31,942 nucleotides of DNA from a virus, in IMG/VR virus record IMGVR_UViG_3300043427_001369, positions 1-31,942 of that record; one strand, written 5' to 3'. The notes under the pieces are model-generated. The model saw only the letters and a list, made by a program, of their open reading frames with translations, was not told the DNA's origin and ran no database searches. A program made the position numbers and the translations under genes. Below, piece after piece: positions 2,928-30,702 of this stretch (positions within the stretch are counted from its first letter, which is position 1; every line of letters begins with the position of its first letter).

Positions 2928-3101
2928 CTACATCTTTGCCTTTTTACTCAGCAGACCGGCAAGGATTTCAATCATGCGGTAGACCTTGGCCACCGCAGCG
3001 TCGTCCTTGGGCGTCGGGGTAAGGTTGACGATCATCAGCGCAGTGGCATGAGCGCTGAGCAAAATCTCAATCGCCGTTTTGGCGTGCTCCAAGAAGTCCA
3101 T
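2928..3101 (-). CDS. Small helical protein (57 aa) of lysis region
   Basis: This gene was found by reading the minus strand between its neighbours. It starts MDFLEHAKTAIEILLSAHAT and has a central VNLTPTPKDDAAVAKVYR motif followed by a second hydrophobic helix, MIEILAGLLSKKAKM. Two short amphipathic or hydrophobic helices are joined by the polar NLTPTPKDD turn. From memory, similar short proteins occur in other tailed phages next to lysozyme genes. That makes a lysis accessory or holin-like role possible, but the helices are short for a classical holin. There is no clear ribosome binding site; the ATG at 3101 is the only sensible start. Confidence 0.6.
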   Translation of the reverse strand: MDFLEHAKTAIEILLSAHATALMIVNLTPTPKDDAAVAKVYRMIEILAGLLSKKAKM

Positions 3102-4746: not shown

Positions 4747-7700
4747 TCAGAGAACGACGGTGGTGTTGATGATGCGGGAATCAGTTACGTCAATGCCGGC
4801 GCGTAGTGTACGCACACGGATGTTTAGGTCGTTGAAGTTAGTAAAGGCGCCCAAGTCTCCGGGATCCGTGACACCAGCATCAATTGCTGGTATCGCGCCC
4901 GTACTTGCCTTGCGGAAGATTGTCGTAGTTGTGTCATAGCCGATACCGTTGATGGTAATACCGCTTGTTACTGCTAGACCAGTGGTGCGCAGGTTTGTGC
5001 TGACTTGCAGCAGGTTGTAGTTACCGAAGACACCCTCAAAGCCGGAGCTGCCAGAGGCCGATACCCAATACTGAGTCCAAAAACGCTCGTCAGTACCGCT
5101 GTAAACAGAGAAGTTGTCAAAGATGCTGCCAAATGCTGGACCCAAGGTGCGCCAGTAGGCAGATGATCCAGAGGAGGATGCGGTGCTCGTTGCAATTGTC
5201 GGAGTGGCCGCAGTACTAAACAAGCGCACGTTTGACCATGTGTTGTTGTAGTTCATCGTGTTAGTGCCCACCGTTCCGCTGGCCCCATCAGGTTCGCCGA
5301 ACGTCAACCTCAGCGTGTCAGCGGTACTGCCTGTGAACAGGTTGGAGCAGTGTCCGGTCAACTCATAAGTGCTGACGGCATACGAACCAGCGGATTGGCC
5401 CGCGCCACGGAAGCGCACTGACGCATAGGCGCCTGTGTTTTGGCTGTTGTCGTAGCGGACATTGCCCATGAGGCACAAGCCTGCAATGACAACGACATCA
5501 GAAGCCAGCTGGATGATCGCCTTACGGCGGCTGTTTCTACTGATACCGCCAATGGTAAAATCGCTGGGCTCCATGGCGCCGATTGCGACGTTTCTCAGGG
5601 CGCCGGTTGAGTTAAATCGAACACAAGGCGCAGAGCGGAGGCCGTACACCTGACCAGCAGTACCTTCAATGACGGCCGCATCTACGGACTGTGCGCGGAG
5701 GTAGTAGTTGCAGGCATTGCTGAAGTCACCAATAGCCAGCGCTCGCCAGTTGGTAGGCGTTGAGCGATCTGCGGCAACGTATGATGTGTTGCCGCTGATG
5801 AAGAACGAATCCGGTACGTCGCTATCGCTCAGTGTTTGCTGGATGCCCCACCACGTAACTCCGACAACATCTGCGGCCTGTTCAAACACAAAACGTAGTG
5901 GGTTTGCTTGGACTAGCAATGCCGTCTGCCCAGTCCCTACATACAGGTGCTCATTGTCTGGTGAGGTTAGGAATGTCGGCTGTTTGGTGTGGTCATAGAA
6001 GTTAGCCCCGCTGAATGGCACCGTTCCACCGTTGGTGTAATCGTTTAGGTAATCCTGGGCCGTAAAATCCCAAGCGCGGATAATGGCTTGCGTTTGGAAC
6101 GTAATCACACCCGTCTCCATGTACATTCCAGCACCGATACGGAACTCCACGGTTTCGTTGGAGCTATAGGCCGCATTGGCGTAGGCCGCAGCATCAGCCA
6201 AATAGCGCACAGGTTTGCCGCTGATGCCGGACGTTGGTGGATCGCTCAGCAGTGCATCAGTGCTAAGTCCTGTGCGGCCATTGACCGGATCCACGTAGAC
6301 GTACTGCGTCCCAGGTCGTGCGCTAACCAATCGGTTCTGGGTGCGCCAATACTCCAGGCCTTTCTTGGTGACGACAACTGCATCGGCATTGATGGCCGCA
6401 TCAAGCTGTGCATCTGTGGTACCTGAGAGGGTTGCGGTGCTGCGCAGCTCTGATGCACTGGCCAGCTCCACGCCGCCTTGCACCGTGGTGGTGGCGCCCA
6501 GGGGAGGAAGGATGGCTGTGTTGTTGACCACCAGCCGGTCAACGGTGATCTCACTGGCGGTGAGGCCATTGGGGAAGTCGGTTTGCTGGATGTCGTCCAG
6601 CGTGGCGCTGCCGATGTCGGTGACGCTCAACGTGGCGCCGGTCTCAACATCCTCCAAGCCCCTGGGAGTGATGTTGAAGCCGTCCTCGTTGCTGCCCTGT
6701 GGTACGACGCGCCCGCCGCTGTGGTTGGTGAAGTAGTAGGTGAACTTGTTCTGGGCGCTCAGCATTTGCTGCGCCGCAGGGACTGCCTTGGAGTAGTTCA
6801 GGAAGCCGGCCCACTCCCATGCGTGGCCATAAAGGCGCAACACGCTGGGGCGGCGGAACTCCACTGCCCAGTTGCCCAGGCCCGATGCCGCGCCACCGCT
6901 CGGCGCCACGGGGAAGTCAGTGGCGCTGGTGGGGTCGCGGTCACGGTCTGCTTCGGCCTGCGGCACCAATGCGTTGTGGGCAGCAGTGGAGGTGAAGCCA
7001 AGCGCTACCAGGAATGCGTAAACACCCAGGTAGTCGGCAGCGGTGCGGTATTGGTTGCGGATGGTGCCGGCGCTAGTCCATACCGTTGAGAAGTTGATCC
7101 CCAGGGTGGTGCTGTCGGCGTCATCACTGGTGTCGGTATCAAGCAGCAGGATGGGCGCCTCGGTAGTGGCTGGATCCTCGCTGCTGTAGCCGGACTCCAT
7201 GTGGACGAACGCTTCACCCCAGAAGGAGGGGTCAGGCGCGGCAGTGGCGGCAGTGAGATCCGTCAGTGCCTGGTAGTGCTTGTTGGCGTATTGGACGACG
7301 ATGCCGGCTCGGTAGTAGGTGCCATTGACGTAGGTGGAGGTAGGCGATGAGCGGCGCAGAATGATATCGCTGGTTACGGCAACGCCCGCCCCAGCAGCAG
7401 GGCCGGTACCAGCAGCACTGACAGTGATCACGTCATCGCCAGTGGTGCCAAGCGCTTCAGCAATGGCGCCACCAACACGAGCGGGATCCGTCTGCAACAC
7501 GAAGTTGCGCTCAGGAATCCTGGCGCTGGCGGTGTTGTTAAGCCGCAGGGATACCCGCCGCTCTTCGGGACTCCTGGTATCAACAAGGCGGCGGATGTAG
7601 ACCCTTTTGCCGATAGCCAGACTCAGGCCGGTATCGGGATCCGTTTCGGGTGCATCGTTGGTGCCAGATTGCTGCAGATCACCTGTGACCTGGATTTCAT

Positions 7701-25673: not shown

Positions 25674-26591
25674 CTAATTAAACGATCCTCCGTCTACTGT
25701 AGCTGCCCAGTCTGCATCGTAGTTTGCCCCTGTTTGTTTGATAAGGACATTACCGGGATCCCCGCCAGTAGGCAGTCCGCTCTCGGTAGTGGGCGGTGGA
25801 GCGGCCTCCCATCTGTCATTAGCAGCTACCCAAGTGAGGACATCGCCGTCCTGGGTGCCGCCATTGGCCTCTACATCGTGTAGATCCTGCAGGCGACGGC
25901 CTGTGTCCCATCGCACCATGAGGATGCCTTGGGCGGCGCTTGAAACGACCGCAGCTACCGCAAGTTTTAGATTCGGCGCCTGAGGCTCTGTTGCAGTAAA
26001 GCCCCCAGGCGTAGACGGATCACACCAAAGGATGGCACCTTCGGCGTACGTTCGCGTATCTACACCACGGATTTTGCCGAAGGTGGTTACGAAACCATCC
26101 GCGCCTGAGGCGATACTTTGCGTGGTCACACCCAGGAACACATAACCTGGATACGTGCCATTAGCCACCATGGGCGCCACAAGAAGGCGACCACTATTTC
26201 CTAGGGTGCCGGCAAACATCACGGCACGACCCTTGGCAATGGTTGTACCAGTACTGTTGCGACATAGAAGTTTGTGCGCCTGACCCCAGGGGATCGTGAC
26301 ACCGCTTGCTACCCCGAGATCTAGAGTTTGCTCGTCTGCGTTCCAGGTAACTACACCTGGATCCACTGTGGCGGCAGCATTTAAGGCGAACCCTAGGGTG
26401 TTAAGTGTCCTGGGGTCAGAGTTCAGATGCCCATAGGGAAGTTGCGACCACAGTGACACTCCGTCACCAATCTTGATGCGCTTGGTATCAGTTTCATAGC
26501 CAGGTTCATTAGCTCGAAGGACTGGATTGACAGCAGCCCATTGAGCTTGAGTACCGGCTCGGAAGTGGAGGCGTTGAGGAGCAGTTGTCAC
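25674..26591 (-). CDS. Fibre/tail-spike-like protein with Mtd N-terminal-like domain (305 aa)
   Basis: The N-terminus, LHFRAGTQAQWAAVNPVLRA and NEPGYETDTKRIKIGDGVSL, is the classic attachment domain of tail spike and hyaluronidase-type fibre proteins (R.Gt...W...NPVL..gE.gyetdt...kiGDG...w..L.y). The middle is beta-rich (WGQAHKLLCRNSTGTTIAKG, VFLGVTTQSIASGADGFVTT), resembling domains found in fibre assembly segments of other phages. Near the end come DVEANGGTQDGDVLTWVAAN and DRWEAAPPP, a segment typical of fibre linkers, and the end is ATVDGGSFN. The GTG start overlaps the stop of the preceding gene (GTGA). Confidence 0.7.
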   Translation of the reverse strand: MTTAPQRLHFRAGTQAQWAAVNPVLRANEPGYETDTKRIKIGDGVSLWSQLPYGHLNSDPRTLNTLGFALNAAATVDPGVVTWNADEQTLDLGVASGVTIPWGQAHKLLCRNSTGTTIAKGRAVMFAGTLGNSGRLLVAPMVANGTYPGYVFLGVTTQSIASGADGFVTTFGKIRGVDTRTYAEGAILWCDPSTPGGFTATEPQAPNLKLAVAAVVSSAAQGILMVRWDTGRRLQDLHDVEANGGTQDGDVLTWVAANDRWEAAPPPTTESGLPTGGDPGNVLIKQTGANYDADWAATVDGGSFN

Positions 26592-27019
26592 GGCGTACCT
26601 CCGTCCACAATTGGCGTGTTCACCCAGACTGTACCGTTATTGATAAGGAGATCACCTTGGGCGGGGGAGGTGACGTTTACGTCGGTGAGATCCTGCAGCT
26701 CAAACTCCCTGGGGTTGCGACCCACGACGGTGCCATCTGGTGGGATGCGCATCAGCATCAGGTCACAAAAGGCACCGTCGTCTAGACGCATCACTTCGCG
26801 AACGGTGTAGTTGACACCATCCACAGCAACAGTATCGCCGTAAACCAAACCGCCAAACAGTGCCGTTTTACAGGTGAGCTTGTAGTCCGTGGTTAGCACC
26901 ACCCCGTCTGCCACGATTTCGCTAGGCATATCCAAAATGCCCAAGTCAGAGGTGGTGCCGGCAACGACGGGTACACCGAAGTCTGCCAGGAACAAATTCA
27001 GATCTTCGGTGAATGCCAT
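26588..27019 (-). CDS. Head-tail joining-like protein with fibre-like C-terminus (143 aa)
   Basis: Residues 1-90 read MAFTEDLNLFLADFGVPVVA, then DLGILDMPSEIVADGV, GGLVYGDTVAVDGVNYTVRE and DDGAFCDLMLM. The order 'f.edl..Fl.dFGvp..........gilD.....v..gd.v.v.g..Y.Vr.v...d.g....l.L' is that of head-tail joining/head completion proteins (the ATP-binding sugar transporter-like family name is misleading). After a short linker the C-terminus, LQDLTDVNVTSPAQGDLLIN and NGTVWVNTPIVDGGTP, is instead the short segment seen in phage fibre proteins. A single polypeptide with both parts is unusual. It lies between the capsid and tail genes, where a joining protein is expected. Confidence 0.6.
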   Translation of the reverse strand: MAFTEDLNLFLADFGVPVVAGTTSDLGILDMPSEIVADGVVLTTDYKLTCKTALFGGLVYGDTVAVDGVNYTVREVMRLDDGAFCDLMLMRIPPDGTVVGRNPREFELQDLTDVNVTSPAQGDLLINNGTVWVNTPIVDGGTP

Positions 27020-27065
27020 GGATCCATGCTAGAGCAAATGGCTTCACCTCATTGTTCCAAAGCCA

Positions 27066-27137
27066 AGGGTCGGGCTGGGCTTGAACCAGCACTGAGTTCC
27101 GATTGTCTCGGCTGCCTCTGCATTGGGCTACCGACCC
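27066..27137 (-). tRNA. tRNA-like element with defective anticodon arm
   Basis: The minus strand of this gap folds as a tRNA: a perfect 7-bp acceptor stem (GGGTCGG/CCGACCC), TA at 8-9, a D arm with stem GCC/GGC and a perfect T arm GCTGG-TTCAAGC-CCAGC. Total length, 72 bases, is normal. The anticodon arm is not normal: CCGA pairs with TCGG around a loop of only five (GACAA), with no T at 33, and the D loop CAATGCAGA has lost one of its two Gs. If the loop were forced to length-based numbering the anticodon would be CAA. No CCA end is encoded. It fits a decayed or unusual tRNA gene; tRNA remnant at a recombination site is an alternative. Confidence 0.5.
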
Positions 27138-27151
27138 AGGACGATACTAGG

Positions 27152-29035
27152 CTAGCTAGTGATCGCCTGCAAAACGGCGTTAGGCAGGCGACGGTCGAAG
27201 TAGGCGAGGCGGCGGATGGTGCCGTTAATTGAGGCAGACGCTTGTGCTGTTCCGATAGTTGCTTGCGTGGGAGTCGGAAGCGTGCCAGAGGTATCAGATG
27301 TTGTTGCAACCCCACCGTTTGCATACGTATCAAAGTCGTTCAACTGGTACGCTCCGGCAAACTTGCTTGCACTGTTTAGCGGCGCCGAGTTGGCGGCGGT
27401 AAATAGGGATGTCTGGACGCTGTTGTTATCAACTACGACGAATTGTCCAGCAGACGTTCCAGTGTGGCCAAGTCTTATCCGCTCTGCCGATGTGGTGTCA
27501 TCTACTCCAAAGAGGCCACCGCCAGACTTAGGTATTGCATCAGCAAACACCGTCCCCTGACTCTGCGAGTACCACCGGCTAAAATTAGACCCCGTGATCT
27601 GAGCGACGTCAGCATTACGGGTGACGGTTGCGCTGGTGGTGGGGATGTAGCTGGTCGGGAAGGCTCCGGCTTCCAGCTGGGCGCCATAGAGAAGGATTCC
27701 GCTTGTGCCGTTAGCGGTGATGTTCAGCGCATTATTTCCGCTAACAACCGATACAGCATACGGGATGGAAGTTGTTCCAGCACTCCTAGATAGCGTGCAT
27801 CTATACCACCCATTACCGACTGATGTAATTGTAGACGTGTTTCCAGTTTCGACTGTACCAACGGTGCCTGTTGAAAGATCAAACCAAGTGCGATGGTTGG
27901 TGCCATCAAAGGCGTCGAGAAAAACCCAGGAATAACCGTCTGCTTTTAGGTAAACGCTCCAGGTGTAAGTCGTACCCGAGCTAACCGTTGCAGTTTGCGC
28001 AATAAAAGGCAAGCCTGTCATTGCATTTGGTATAAACCTATCGGCAACTGTCAAGCCGTTCGGTGCTGTTCCAGCGTTCGAGGTAACCGTCCCGTTGACT
28101 TTATTGTTCCACGCGGCATCATTAAACTCCTCACTTCTTAGCAACAGGTTGATACGTGATTCCTCAATCAACAACCCCAGGCTTTCACCAGTCGTCGGGT
28201 CATGGTCAAACCGTGGAGCGCCGGAGATGCTGGATGTGGTCTTGACGTATTCGCCTGGGGTGGTGGAGGCTTCTAGTTGGGCGCCCCAGAGGTAGAGGCC
28301 GGAGGTGCCGTCTCCGGTGTAGGTAGTGTTACCAGAGGAAGATAGGTATATTCGGGCAGTAACGGCTGTTCCTGCTCCCTGCGTAGCAGTCACTATGCAA
28401 CGATACCAGCCACCGGATAAAGGCACAATAGACACGGATACATTTGTCCAGCTGCCACCTGGAGAGGTAGATGTTGTGCCGTTTGTCAGCGTGAACGTTC
28501 CGCCAATCAAGGCGGACACGCCATCTGTCATACCGATGAACACTTGGCTGCGCTCGGCGGCCTTGATGTAACAAGAGAAGGTATAAGTGCCCGAAGAGCT
28601 TGTGTAGCTTTGTCCAATAAAGTGGTTGTTGCTTGCTGTTGTGTCCTCAACGAGCTTGTCCGCTGTCAAGGTGCCGTCAGGTGCCGCAATAGCATTTGCA
28701 ACAGAGCCAGAACCGAAAGGCTGTACGCGAGTTTTTGCCCAACTCGCATTATCAAACTCCTCACTCCGTAACAGCAAATTGACCACCGAGTTCTTAATCA
28801 GCCCATCGCTACCCACATACGTCCCAACGCCATTACCTCCCCTGGTGAAGTCGATCAGGTTCTGGCCGCTGACGTTATCGTTGAGGCTTTTGCTAGAGGC
28901 AAAGCGCAAATCCAAGGTTGGCGTACCAGCCTGGGAGTAGAGGAGATCGTCGCCCGTCCCTGGGGCGCCAGTGATCTTCCAGCTTGATGCTGTGGGCTTT
29001 GCCAGCGTCAGCCCCGCCGCGAGCGTCAGGCCCAT
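27152..29035 (-). CDS. Modular adhesin with duplicated carbohydrate-binding-like domains (627 aa)
   Basis: Two homologous modules follow a short N-terminal part. Module 1 (about 86-265) starts NLLLRSEEFDNASW and ends LYLWGAQLEAS; module 2 (about 296-465) starts NLLLRSEEFNDAAW and ends ILLYGAQLEAG. Both contain a YTFSCYIKA/YTWSVYLKA strand and a GGWYRC/NGWYRC turn. They resemble jelly-roll carbohydrate-binding modules found in phage fibres. The C-terminus (about 480-627) looks LamG-like: FSRWYSQSQGTVFADA near its start and INGTIRRLAYFDRRLPNAVL near its end. It is coupled to the preceding gene by an ATGA overlap. Probably a host-binding protein on head or tail surface. Confidence 0.72.
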   Translation of the reverse strand: MGLTLAAGLTLAKPTASSWKITGAPGTGDDLLYSQAGTPTLDLRFASSKSLNDNVSGQNLIDFTRGGNGVGTYVGSDGLIKNSVVNLLLRSEEFDNASWAKTRVQPFGSGSVANAIAAPDGTLTADKLVEDTTASNNHFIGQSYTSSSGTYTFSCYIKAAERSQVFIGMTDGVSALIGGTFTLTNGTTSTSPGGSWTNVSVSIVPLSGGWYRCIVTATQGAGTAVTARIYLSSSGNTTYTGDGTSGLYLWGAQLEASTTPGEYVKTTSSISGAPRFDHDPTTGESLGLLIEESRINLLLRSEEFNDAAWNNKVNGTVTSNAGTAPNGLTVADRFIPNAMTGLPFIAQTATVSSGTTYTWSVYLKADGYSWVFLDAFDGTNHRTWFDLSTGTVGTVETGNTSTITSVGNGWYRCTLSRSAGTTSIPYAVSVVSGNNALNITANGTSGILLYGAQLEAGAFPTSYIPTTSATVTRNADVAQITGSNFSRWYSQSQGTVFADAIPKSGGGLFGVDDTTSAERIRLGHTGTSAGQFVVVDNNSVQTSLFTAANSAPLNSASKFAGAYQLNDFDTYANGGVATTSDTSGTLPTPTQATIGTAQASASINGTIRRLAYFDRRLPNAVLQAITS

Positions 29036-29343
29036 CAGATCACCTCCGGTTCAGGCGCAGGCTCCTCAACCTCTGGCTCCGGTTCAGGAAGCACAATGGC
29101 ATCAGCACCTTGATACGCCGGGTTAGGCGATCCATCGGCCAAGAACTTTGGTTCCAGGGCGCCCACGTAGTACGGACCGACCTTATAGGCTTCGGCTCGC
29201 TGGCGCAAAGTCTCTACAACGCTGAGCACAAAATAGTCTTCAGCACTGGTAGCTGTAGTAGCACCTGCAGAGACAACCGTTAAATACTCAGCTTGGATAG
29301 CTGGCATCAACTCATCAGGCAGTTCAAACGAAACAAGGGCCAT
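29035..29343 (-). CDS. Small acidic protein, virion associated (102 aa)
   Basis: The protein reads MALVSFELPDELMPAIQAEY, then SAEDYFVLSVVETLRQRAEA, and ends in an acidic proline repeat (PEPEPEVEEPAPEPEV). I chose the ATG at 29343 over an upstream in-frame start at 29403 because a GAGGA ribosome binding site lies seven bases before it and because the upstream version would overlap the previous gene by 50 bases. The Pro-Glu repeat suggests a flexible extension. Function unknown; neighbours are fibre-like proteins. Confidence 0.6.
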   Translation of the reverse strand: MALVSFELPDELMPAIQAEYLTVVSAGATTATSAEDYFVLSVVETLRQRAEAYKVGPYYVGALEPKFLADGSPNPAYQGADAIVLPEPEPEVEEPAPEPEVI

Positions 29344-29353
29344 GAGTGAATCC

Positions 29354-30097
29354 TCAAGCGGTGGTGGCTTTGATGACGACAAAAGCGAGGACAATAGCCT
29401 CACTTAGGGAGCCAGCCGTGATATTACGCACATTCACACTGGCAGAGCCGGCAGCGGTCTGTGCATTTAGCAAATAAGCACCAGCCGTACCAGCAGAGAC
29501 GTGATTCAAAATAAGCACGTCGCCTGCTGCAATCTGAGAATTTGTCAAGGTAAAACTGACCGTTGTACTGGCGGCAAGGGCAGCGTTATTAAGCGTGATC
29601 TGCCCACACTGCGTATTCAACGTCACCCCTGTAGCTTTGCTCGTGGCTTGCGTTACTGTGCCTCCAGCACCAATGCCATAACCAAAAGGCAGTGTAAAGC
29701 GAGTGCCACTACTAGAATCAAAGGTTGTGTTAGAGCCAGCAACGGCGCCGCTCAGGTTATACAACACCTGACCAGAAGCGCCCCCCACTAAGGCGACAGT
29801 CCCTGTGGCATCGGGGAACGAAATCGTCCTATTGGCAGTAGGAGTAACCGCCTGAAGAGTTGTGCTGTACGTTCCACCGTCGTCAAGGTTGATGTCACCA
29901 CCAACGCCGAGTTCTTTGGCGGTATCGTCCCAGGTAAGGTCAGCGGATGCTCCGAAAGCATTGCTGTCGTTGTACTGGAGCTGCGTGTCTGCGCCTGCCG
30001 GTTGCCCAGTACCGCCCTGCACGCCAGGGACAGCCACTGCCACCTGTACGGCAGCCTGGGGAATTACCGATAGCTGGACGACGCCCGTGCTAGTCAT
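29354..30097 (-). CDS. Fibre-like virion protein (247 aa)
   Basis: The N-terminus VVQLSVIPQAAVQVAVAVPG is followed by QGGTGQPAGADTQLQYNDSN and AFGASADLTWDDTAKELGVG. This is a fibre-type segment found in phage and prophage fibres, in which 'QLQYNdggafgg...ltwd...' is a known pattern; here the same order is seen. The C-terminal 95 residues (CGQITLNNAALAASTTVSFT, ITAGSLSEAIVLAFVVIKA) match a small beta-sandwich trimer domain common at the end of phage fibre and head-fibre proteins. Head fibre and tail fibre are both possible given its closeness to the capsid genes. Confidence 0.65.
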   Translation of the reverse strand: MTSTGVVQLSVIPQAAVQVAVAVPGVQGGTGQPAGADTQLQYNDSNAFGASADLTWDDTAKELGVGGDINLDDGGTYSTTLQAVTPTANRTISFPDATGTVALVGGASGQVLYNLSGAVAGSNTTFDSSSGTRFTLPFGYGIGAGGTVTQATSKATGVTLNTQCGQITLNNAALAASTTVSFTLTNSQIAAGDVLILNHVSAGTAGAYLLNAQTAAGSASVNVRNITAGSLSEAIVLAFVVIKATTA

Positions 30098-30099
30098 GC

Positions 30100-30702
30100 T
30101 CAGTTCCGCGAGTAGGTACGCTCAACCGTTGCGACGCCCTTGAGGAAATAATAACGCTGGCCCCCAGTTGCGGTGAAACTTACGTCGTAGCCGTAACGCC
30201 CGGGCTCTAGGGAGGCAGAAGTAGAAGGAGGCACCGTTAGCGACACCACACCATTTGCTGCATCAGACAATGCGCAAACCATCGTGGCCTCTTGGGTATT
30301 GGTTAGTAGGCCGTAAATGTCTGCATCAATGGTGTAACCCGTTAGGTTCATTGGCGTAGCTACATAGAACGTACCAGTAGCACTGCCGCTTAATGCCACT
30401 TCGCTACCACCGGATGTAGCAGACACCTTGAAGGCTCCTGTAGTCAACCCAGAGGAAATGACGTAATAGACCCTATTCAGCTCTAGTCCGCATGGCACAC
30501 TAAGCTCTTGGCCTGTTAGTGCTGTACCTGTAAAGACAACCTTGTCGCCCGCAGTAAGACCGTGACAATCACACGTAAACGTACCAACGCCAGCAGCTAC
30601 GGTAATGCTATCCAGGGTCTGTCTATCCTCGGTCACACGCAGAGACGTAGACCACGTGGCATTTTGCAGCAGCGTGATGTCGTAGCTAGCGGGATAGATC
30701 AT
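30100..30702 (-). CDS. Modular virion protein with beta-domain insertion (200 aa)
   Basis: The outer part (MIYPASYDITLLQNATWSTS and, later, MNLTGYTIDADIYGLL, GVVSLTVPPSTSASLEPGRY, GQRYYFLKGVATVERTYS) matches a small phage structural domain usually read as 'P..YdI.I..G.t...........LTGy....qir..........v....l.pG.Y.YDl......G....ll.G...V'. Between the two parts, at about 33-114, an FCCH-like beta module is inserted: FTCDCHGLTAGDKVVFTGTA, YYVISSGLTTGAFKVSATSG, ALSGSATGTFYV. The gene is the first after the terminator at 30797-30816. Its start has no strong ribosome binding site. Confidence 0.65.
   Translation of the reverse strand: MIYPASYDITLLQNATWSTSLRVTEDRQTLDSITVAAGVGTFTCDCHGLTAGDKVVFTGTALTGQELSVPCGLELNRVYYVISSGLTTGAFKVSATSGGSEVALSGSATGTFYVATPMNLTGYTIDADIYGLLTNTQEATMVCALSDAANGVVSLTVPPSTSASLEPGRYGYDVSFTATGGQRYYFLKGVATVERTYSRN

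Follow-up and report, generated by a model that had tools for sequence, protein, structure and literature searches.

A conserved tRNA-like RNA of cyanophages with a GACAA-capped hairpin in the position of the anticodon arm

What role could a tRNA-shaped RNA that lacks a usual anticodon loop have among the structural genes of a phage? The question is raised by a 31,942-base IMG/VR virus record, which was analysed over its full length and is called the window here. Its host is probably a Synechococcus-like cyanobacterium, given that the nearest isolates by protein are the Synechococcus siphoviruses S-CBS1, S-CBS3 and S-LBS1. A 132-base gap in the window (27020-27151) separates two minus-strand genes, namely an upstream gene for a phrog_5939 tail protein (27152..29035) and a downstream gene for a head-closure or head-tail attachment protein (26588..27019; phrog_82, PF05354). 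An earlier note, made from the letters of the sequence, had described in this gap a tRNA-like fold of normal length with perfect acceptor and T stems, a short D loop and a five-base loop without T33, and had offered decay of a tRNA, a tRNA with an unusual loop, and an attachment or recombination scar among its explanations. The description of the fold and its setting is borne out: the fold is present letter for letter at 27066-27137 on the minus, transcribed strand and is 72 nt long.

Read from its 5' end at 27137, the element begins with the acceptor strand GGGTCGG (27131..27137, minus strand as are all its parts), which forms a perfect stem of 7 bp with CCGACCC (27067-27073). This is followed by the D arm GCCCAATGCAGAGGC with its short D loop (27114..27128), which is near-invariant among family members, the arm at the anticodon position (27096..27112), and the variable-region segment CTCAGT (27091..27096), which is invariant and common to ordinary phage tRNA-Leu. 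The T arm GCTGG-TTCAAGC-CCAGC, with a perfect 5-bp stem and the T loop TTCAAGC, occupies 27067..27090 together with the 3' acceptor strand CCGACCC; the discriminator position (27066) is T and no CCA is encoded. Infernal scores the element at 33.3 bits against the Rfam tRNA family (RF00005), the gathering score of which is 29, with an E-value of 1.2e-5 that was computed for 201 bases against all 4227 families. Thus, a cloverleaf with acceptor, D and T arms is recognized at the family score, and the window element lacks the 5-bp anticodon stem, 7-nt loop and U33 of that family. The element is absent from a fast-filter Rfam scan of the whole window at the gathering threshold, and ARAGORN, which had been suggested as a check, does not call it in the window. 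Folded alone, the 72 nt adopt the cloverleaf as their minimum-energy structure (-28.8 kcal/mol, z -2.65), with only one of 200 shuffles being as stable. With its flanks included, the minimum-energy structure differs from the cloverleaf and is not better than shuffles, and therefore thermodynamics alone is not the argument.

The arm at the anticodon position, which the earlier note had called broken, is instead refolded and conserved, as its covariation indicates. It keeps the normal 17 nt but folds differently from a standard anticodon arm: an outer pair, G(27112)-C(27096), is followed by the stem CCGA/TCGG (27108-27111 paired with 27099-27102), a bulge on the 3' side (AA at 27097-27098 in the window; AA or AG across the family), and the pentaloop GACAA (27103..27107), which replaces the 7-nt anticodon loop and offers no U33. 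These letters are the same as in the boxB loop of P22, a GNRA-like pentaloop in which a looped-out C contacts the N peptide (PMC12550061), and on this sequence identity the GACAA of the window element is presumably GNRA-like as well. Rare variants of the loop, GATAA (in S-SZBM1 and one contig, L041) and GCGAAA (in the tRNA-like element of L240), also look GNRA-like. A 5-nt loop that is closed directly by covarying pairs and has no U33 is not expected to decode; the GNRA-like loop, the covarying closing pairs and the missing U33 together make a role outside translation a reasonable reading.

An exact scan with the T arm alone recovered four contigs (L121, L126, L127 and L128) that carry the same element with different acceptor and hairpin stems. 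Pattern scans in which the D arm and GACAA were fixed, the loop was left free, the loop was fixed and the D arm left free, or the D loop was kept short and the anticodon loop left free together yielded about 40 contigs. The scans with a free loop return two kinds of sequence only: one is a family in which the loop is invariably GACAA, and the other is ordinary phage tRNA-Leu with 7-nt loops. Both have TAGCCCAA..GCAGAGGC..CTCAGT in common, and from these shared letters the GACAA family looks to be derived from phage tRNA-Leu. As the homologues were gathered from one viral-contig collection by exact patterns, these numbers undersample the diversity of the family and are biased to the patterns used. 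BLAST was insufficient for recovering the family, which required patterns and covariance models; when phages and plasmids were searched by BLAST with the element as query, the only matches were due to chance or to tRNA fragments. Some pattern matches were discarded as chance, namely the sole match in the genome_contigs set (L135, Paracoccaceae), which lies inside a different sequence, and two matches to the GACAA pattern (L155 and L162).

In an alignment of 16 sequences, 98.4% of the cells are paired and 52 cells show double changes, as against 16.6 in shuffled and at most 10 in slid controls. A more diverse set of 20 sequences has 98.2% of its cells paired and 74 double-change cells (shuffled mean 20.8; slid at most 17), which rules out simple decay. 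The double changes in this set affect 7 of 7 acceptor pairs, 3 of 5 T-stem pairs and 3 of 5 arm pairs, while the D stem, the GACAA pentaloop and CTCAGT show no variation. Loss of the fold or of its base pairs in close relatives, the observation that had been named as fatal to the element, was looked for, and the pairs are kept. Covariance models built for the family (R1 and R2) score its members at 67 bits or more versus at most 55 bits for ordinary tRNAs, and each record searched contains one copy of the element. The discriminator position is a pyrimidine in most of the tRNA-like elements of the family. We conclude that diverse cyanophages possess a conserved, structured family of tRNA-like RNAs with a non-canonical arm, and that the window element is probably a non-decoding member of it rather than a decaying tRNA. 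As a separate observation, T loops with TGCAA in place of TTCAA (U55 to G) are seen in L179, L180, L182, L184, L185 and L200 and in the tRNAs of L181, so that they occur both in tRNA-like elements and in the tRNAs of some of those phages.

The GACAA arm is found on at least three tRNA scaffolds. The other scaffolds have normal D loops, and their arm consists of an outer pair, a 3' bulge A, a 3-bp stem and GACAA. For the commonest of these bodies, scaffold-2, 22 sequences give 95.9% of cells paired and 90 double-change cells, with all 4 of the 4 arm pairs covarying, including the pair across the bulge. Isolated phages carry the arm as well: it has the loop GACAA in S-PM2 (NC_006820.1 164658-164729), S-RIM8, S-RIM32, DSL-LC03 and S-CREM1 (OP535465.1 9968-10039), whereas S-SZBM1 has it with GATAA. 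The isolate records have no annotated feature, and hence no tRNA, under these matches; the isolate elements are not among the Rfam tRNA matches at E 0.01, and ARAGORN calls several of them with no anticodon or an implausible one. Searched with R1, the phages S-CREM1, S-SZBM1, S-EIVl, S-CBP1, P-RSP2, S-CBS1, S-LBS1 and S-CBS3 show nothing above tRNA-level scores, the elements of S-CREM1 and S-SZBM1 using a scaffold other than that of R1.

The gap in the window also contains a candidate -10 box, TAGTAT (27144..27149, minus strand), exactly six bases ahead of the first base of the element, the same spacing as that between a candidate -10, TAGCAT (27026-27031, minus strand), and the ATG of the head-closure gene. 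TANNNT is the usual cyanobacterial form of the -10 element, and scans of the locus for the sigma-70 consensus and for terminators reported nothing. Comparable spacing is seen in L121, L127, L131 and L134, and ahead of a hairpin (motif B) of 25-27 nt with the form GTTCCCGCTCTGC-N-GCATCGGGC and a variable loop. In six loci (L129, L132, L157, L158, L160 and L161) this hairpin, here of 25-26 nt, lies directly 5' of the element, with a TANNNT box exactly six bases ahead of it where checked. Judging from the letters of the box and its spacing, the window element thus likely has a promoter that starts at or close to its base 1. Hairpin B is also observed at L014:1218, L015:3046, L089:6866 and L156:4729, and occurs without a tRNA-like element, for instance ahead of the head-closure gene in L014 and L015. 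TANNNT boxes about six bases ahead of the ATG are a feature of the head-closure gene of the window and of its homologues in L004, L005, L007, L008, L011, L018, L019, L023 and L024, where they would yield leaderless mRNAs. In two contigs (L182 and L200) an A and at least 10 T follow the element immediately, as though the element acted as a terminator.

The position of the element varies among related phages, gene names outside the window having been read from the sequence by eye. It is at the same place as in the window in the closest relatives (L002/L120 and L003/L122), about 2 kb upstream of the same head-closure gene in L005/L006, and ahead of a gene resembling the portal gene in four other relatives. 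Several 55-kb phages have it after a kinase-like gene and ahead of an opposite-strand HNH gene and a tyrosine integrase gene, the latter about 1 kb away; in L167 both neighbouring genes are on the opposite strand. The isolates related by their head-closure gene (S-CBS1, S-CBS3 and S-LBS1) have no gap at the corresponding place. A general role as the leader of the head-closure gene was rejected, since the neighbouring genes differ among relatives, the element coming ahead of a portal-like gene, behind an early operon or between opposite-strand genes; with no downstream gene common to them, a cis-acting leader is unlikely, and the differing neighbours together with the single copy per record point to action in trans. 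Separately, the stretch of the window at 26588-30702 has four genes and the element between a phrog_5707 gene and the head-closure gene, whereas the head-closure gene of L008, L011, L014-L017 and others is directly preceded by a gene that shares the C-terminal end of the phrog_5707 gene; the stretch looks like an exchangeable cassette. A tRNA-Lys (TTT) is observed about 0.75 kb downstream of the element, near the integrase, in L121 (7229-7302) and L169 (11760-11833), and is possibly an attachment-site tRNA.

The element is also connected with the abiF RNA (RF03085), which lies directly upstream of it in many contigs, an arrangement that recurs in some 20 loci. In L156 and L164 abiF is found at the Rfam gathering score, with its matches beside the element and not within it; the element itself does not match the abiF covariance model, the window has no abiF RNA at the gathering score, and many loci with the tRNA-like element are without abiF. 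A scan for abiF only, which placed no condition on what follows it, gave at least 120 matches. Among the distinct sites with enough flank in the matches listed, a cloverleaf starts 0-3 bases after abiF at 66 of 92; for random positions taken from these loci the figure is 7 of 1840. An automatic rule divides those 66 sites evenly into 33 canonical tRNAs and 33 that are not, some of its arm calls being wrong (L179, L214, L265 and L308 were read by eye). A GACAA tRNA-like element (once with GATAA) directly abuts 25 of the 103 distinct abiF sites collected, 17 of these elements being downstream and 8 upstream, and 37 of the 103 have one within 1 kb. The background is six such elements in 1.99 million strand-bases of loci chosen by protein homology. 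This comparison is not fully clean, as 10 of the 25 abutting sites lie in loci fetched with tRNA-like-element or window-protein queries; the remaining 15 were brought in by the abiF scan, which made no selection for the GACAA arm. Hairpin B and another module (module C) likewise abut tRNAs or tRNA-like elements. RCd22, an RNA with abiF motifs, neutralises the AbiF toxin by binding it directly (PMC12373285), and an abiF RNA has been reported in the cyanophage S-CREM1 (PMC9964418). The linkage observed is with the abiF RNA itself, and in one exact-pattern scan of genome contigs no defence locus of a cyanobacterium was found to carry an RNA of this kind.

Other small modules were observed in these neighborhoods. 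A second tRNA-like class follows abiF in L228, L229, L232, L236, L262, L275, L288 and L314; it has a 6-bp stem at the anticodon position, its loop of 5 nt ends in ATA (AGATA, ACATA, TCATA or AAATA) and has no U33, and ARAGORN labels some of its members tRNA-Ile or tRNA-Met. A small RNA-like module, CTCTGT..ATCCTTGAGG..CACGCTTGGGCCATC, with paired changes visible by eye in its outer stem, is located 5' of one of three features (abiF, a tRNA or a tRNA-like element) in L156 (~4815-4860), L199, L204, L089 (~6895-6945), S-SZBM1 (L207 ~2945-3000), S-RIM8 and S-RIM32. Another, GGGTGCAACAAGGAACGTTGCATTAAACGAAG, is 3' of the tRNA-like element in S-CREM1 (L206:2514-2600) and in L185 (after ~157 of its reverse strand), and 3' of abiF in L238.

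In light of these connections, we tentatively favor a trans-acting anti-defence RNA, either an antitoxin-type mimic or a nuclease decoy, as the most likely role, at a confidence that falls short of even. This preference is based on the linkage with an antitoxin motif, on a tRNA body without the loop that anticodon nucleases cut, and on precedents: RNA mimicry by a phage is known from pseudo-ToxI (PMC3475682), phage tRNAs with altered anticodon loops are predicted to evade tRNases (PMC10264068), and Cas13a, the nuclease domain of which is proposed to descend from AbiD/F, cleaves tRNA anticodons (PMC11042736). The L-shaped body is kept through its acceptor, D and T arms, with the anticodon arm rebuilt across the class as an outer pair, a 3' bulge of 1-2 nt, a stem of 3-4 bp and a GNRA-like pentaloop GACAA. 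During infection the RNA would be transcribed, probably under its own -10 box in the case of the window, where its 5' end would fall at or near 27137, and would act in trans. As a tRNA-shaped decoy with no cleavable anticodon loop, it might occupy a host toxin that is RNA-controlled or cleaves tRNA, such as an HEPN RNase resembling AbiF or some other anticodon nuclease, and may work together with the abiF antitoxin motif, its direct neighbour in many related phages. We infer its transcription, stability, action in trans, target identity and inhibition; the decoy step is a guess, because the RNA target of AbiF is stated to be undefined (PMC12373285). A more speculative and rather improbable extension is that the small anti-defence RNAs of cyanophages come in strings, an abiF antitoxin mimic being coupled to a tRNA mimic that has a nuclease-proof GNRA-like pentaloop in place of its anticodon loop, such that one transcript would block both the RNA-binding and the substrate sites of an HEPN RNase of the AbiF/Cas13 lineage; the window element would then be the tRNA half alone under its own promoter.

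The strongest rival to the anti-defence reading is RNA punctuation, in which RNase P and the 3' tRNA nuclease would act on the tRNA-like body, freeing the exact ends of neighboring RNAs (abiF, hairpin B, module C or the downstream mRNA), its arm having been released from decoding and capped with a stable loop. The abutment of cloverleaves on abiF in the matches listed fits this reading, and so do other observations: real tRNAs follow abiF as often as tRNA-like folds do, S-CREM1 and S-SZBM1 have a real tRNA within a few bases after abiF, and hairpin B and module C adjoin tRNAs or tRNA-like elements. However, it leaves unexplained why GACAA is invariant and the D arm and CTCAGT are fixed while the acceptor and T stems, which RNase P contacts, diverge; moreover, a candidate -10 box stands immediately ahead of the element in the window and in L121, L127, L131 and L134, so that there is no upstream RNA to be freed. 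We regard punctuation as possible but somewhat doubtful. The conservation of the loop, the most conserved part of the element, would be accounted for by a protein-binding regulatory RNA, in which the GACAA hairpin, identical in its loop letters to boxB, would be a boxB-like site on a tRNA body to which a peptide or protein, of the phage or of its host, would bind to control transcription or assembly. Its stem is shorter than that of boxB, no N-like gene was encountered, and its genome positions differ, with the L167 copy lying between opposite-strand genes; this makes such a role unlikely.

Explanations that keep the element within the ordinary life of tRNAs fare worse. That it is a tRNA with an unusual loop was right as to form, and a tRNA-Leu-derived molecule reading codons with a 5-nt loop would be consistent with the D arm and CTCAGT of ordinary phage tRNA-Leu and with the label tRNA-Leu(caa) that ARAGORN gives some relatives. 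Decoding is nevertheless very improbable: besides the lack of U33 and the covarying pairs that close the loop on both sides, most of the tRNA-like elements have a pyrimidine discriminator where A is expected for Leu, no CCA is encoded, and the same arm sits on unrelated tRNA scaffolds. A decayed tRNA gene or an attachment or recombination scar, both of which the earlier note had entertained, might be suspected from the varying position among related phages and from the nearby integrase of several 55-kb phages. We give these almost no credence, as changes in the stems are compensatory across relatives in which the hairpin loop and D arm stay fixed, most copies have no integrase nearby, and the acceptor sequences vary, so that a shared core site is improbable.

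To our knowledge there is no single agreed purpose for phage tRNAs. A tRNA-shaped RNA that has traded its anticodon loop for a fixed hairpin, and which is also present in the model phage S-PM2, separates translation from the other uses of phage tRNAs and is a defined object for testing. Its linkage with the abiF RNA points towards abortive infection by RNases as practised in picocyanobacteria, and the anti-defence role, if true, would be a case of RNA mimicry of tRNA by a DNA phage. We found no description of GACAA tRNA-like RNAs in the open-access literature, nor, apart from the abiF RNA report in S-CREM1, of a counter-defence RNA of picocyanobacteria.

The closest known relatives of the element by sequence are phage tRNA-Leu with a short variable loop (e.g., those of L142 and L137), which have the same TAGCCCAA..GCAGAGGC D arm, CTCAGT, T arm and overall length, whereas the element has the refolded 17-nt arm with GACAA, a shortened D loop and no ACCA end. 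The abiF RNA, the type III antitoxin RNAs and the pseudo-ToxI of PhiTE are likewise small structured RNAs in phage genomes, and the neutralisation in trans proposed for the element would be akin to theirs; unlike the abiF RNA, which it abuts in many contigs, the element has a tRNA-like fold instead of the abiF hairpin, and has no known cognate toxin. Phage tRNAs with altered loops, predicted to evade tRNases, likewise combine a tRNA body with a modified anticodon loop and are connected with defences that cleave tRNA, but they are proposed to replace host tRNAs in translation (PMC10264068), whereas the element has no usable anticodon loop. The pseudo-tRNA of Bacillus cereus (tRNA-Other) is another tRNA-like RNA outside translation; it is chromosomal and located at a genomic island (PMC3399842), and the abstract on it mentions neither a GACAA arm nor a comparable family. 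Finally, the P22 boxB hairpin has the same GNRA-like pentaloop GACAA, but it is a free hairpin in the nut site, whereas the hairpin of the cyanophage element is set within a tRNA body.
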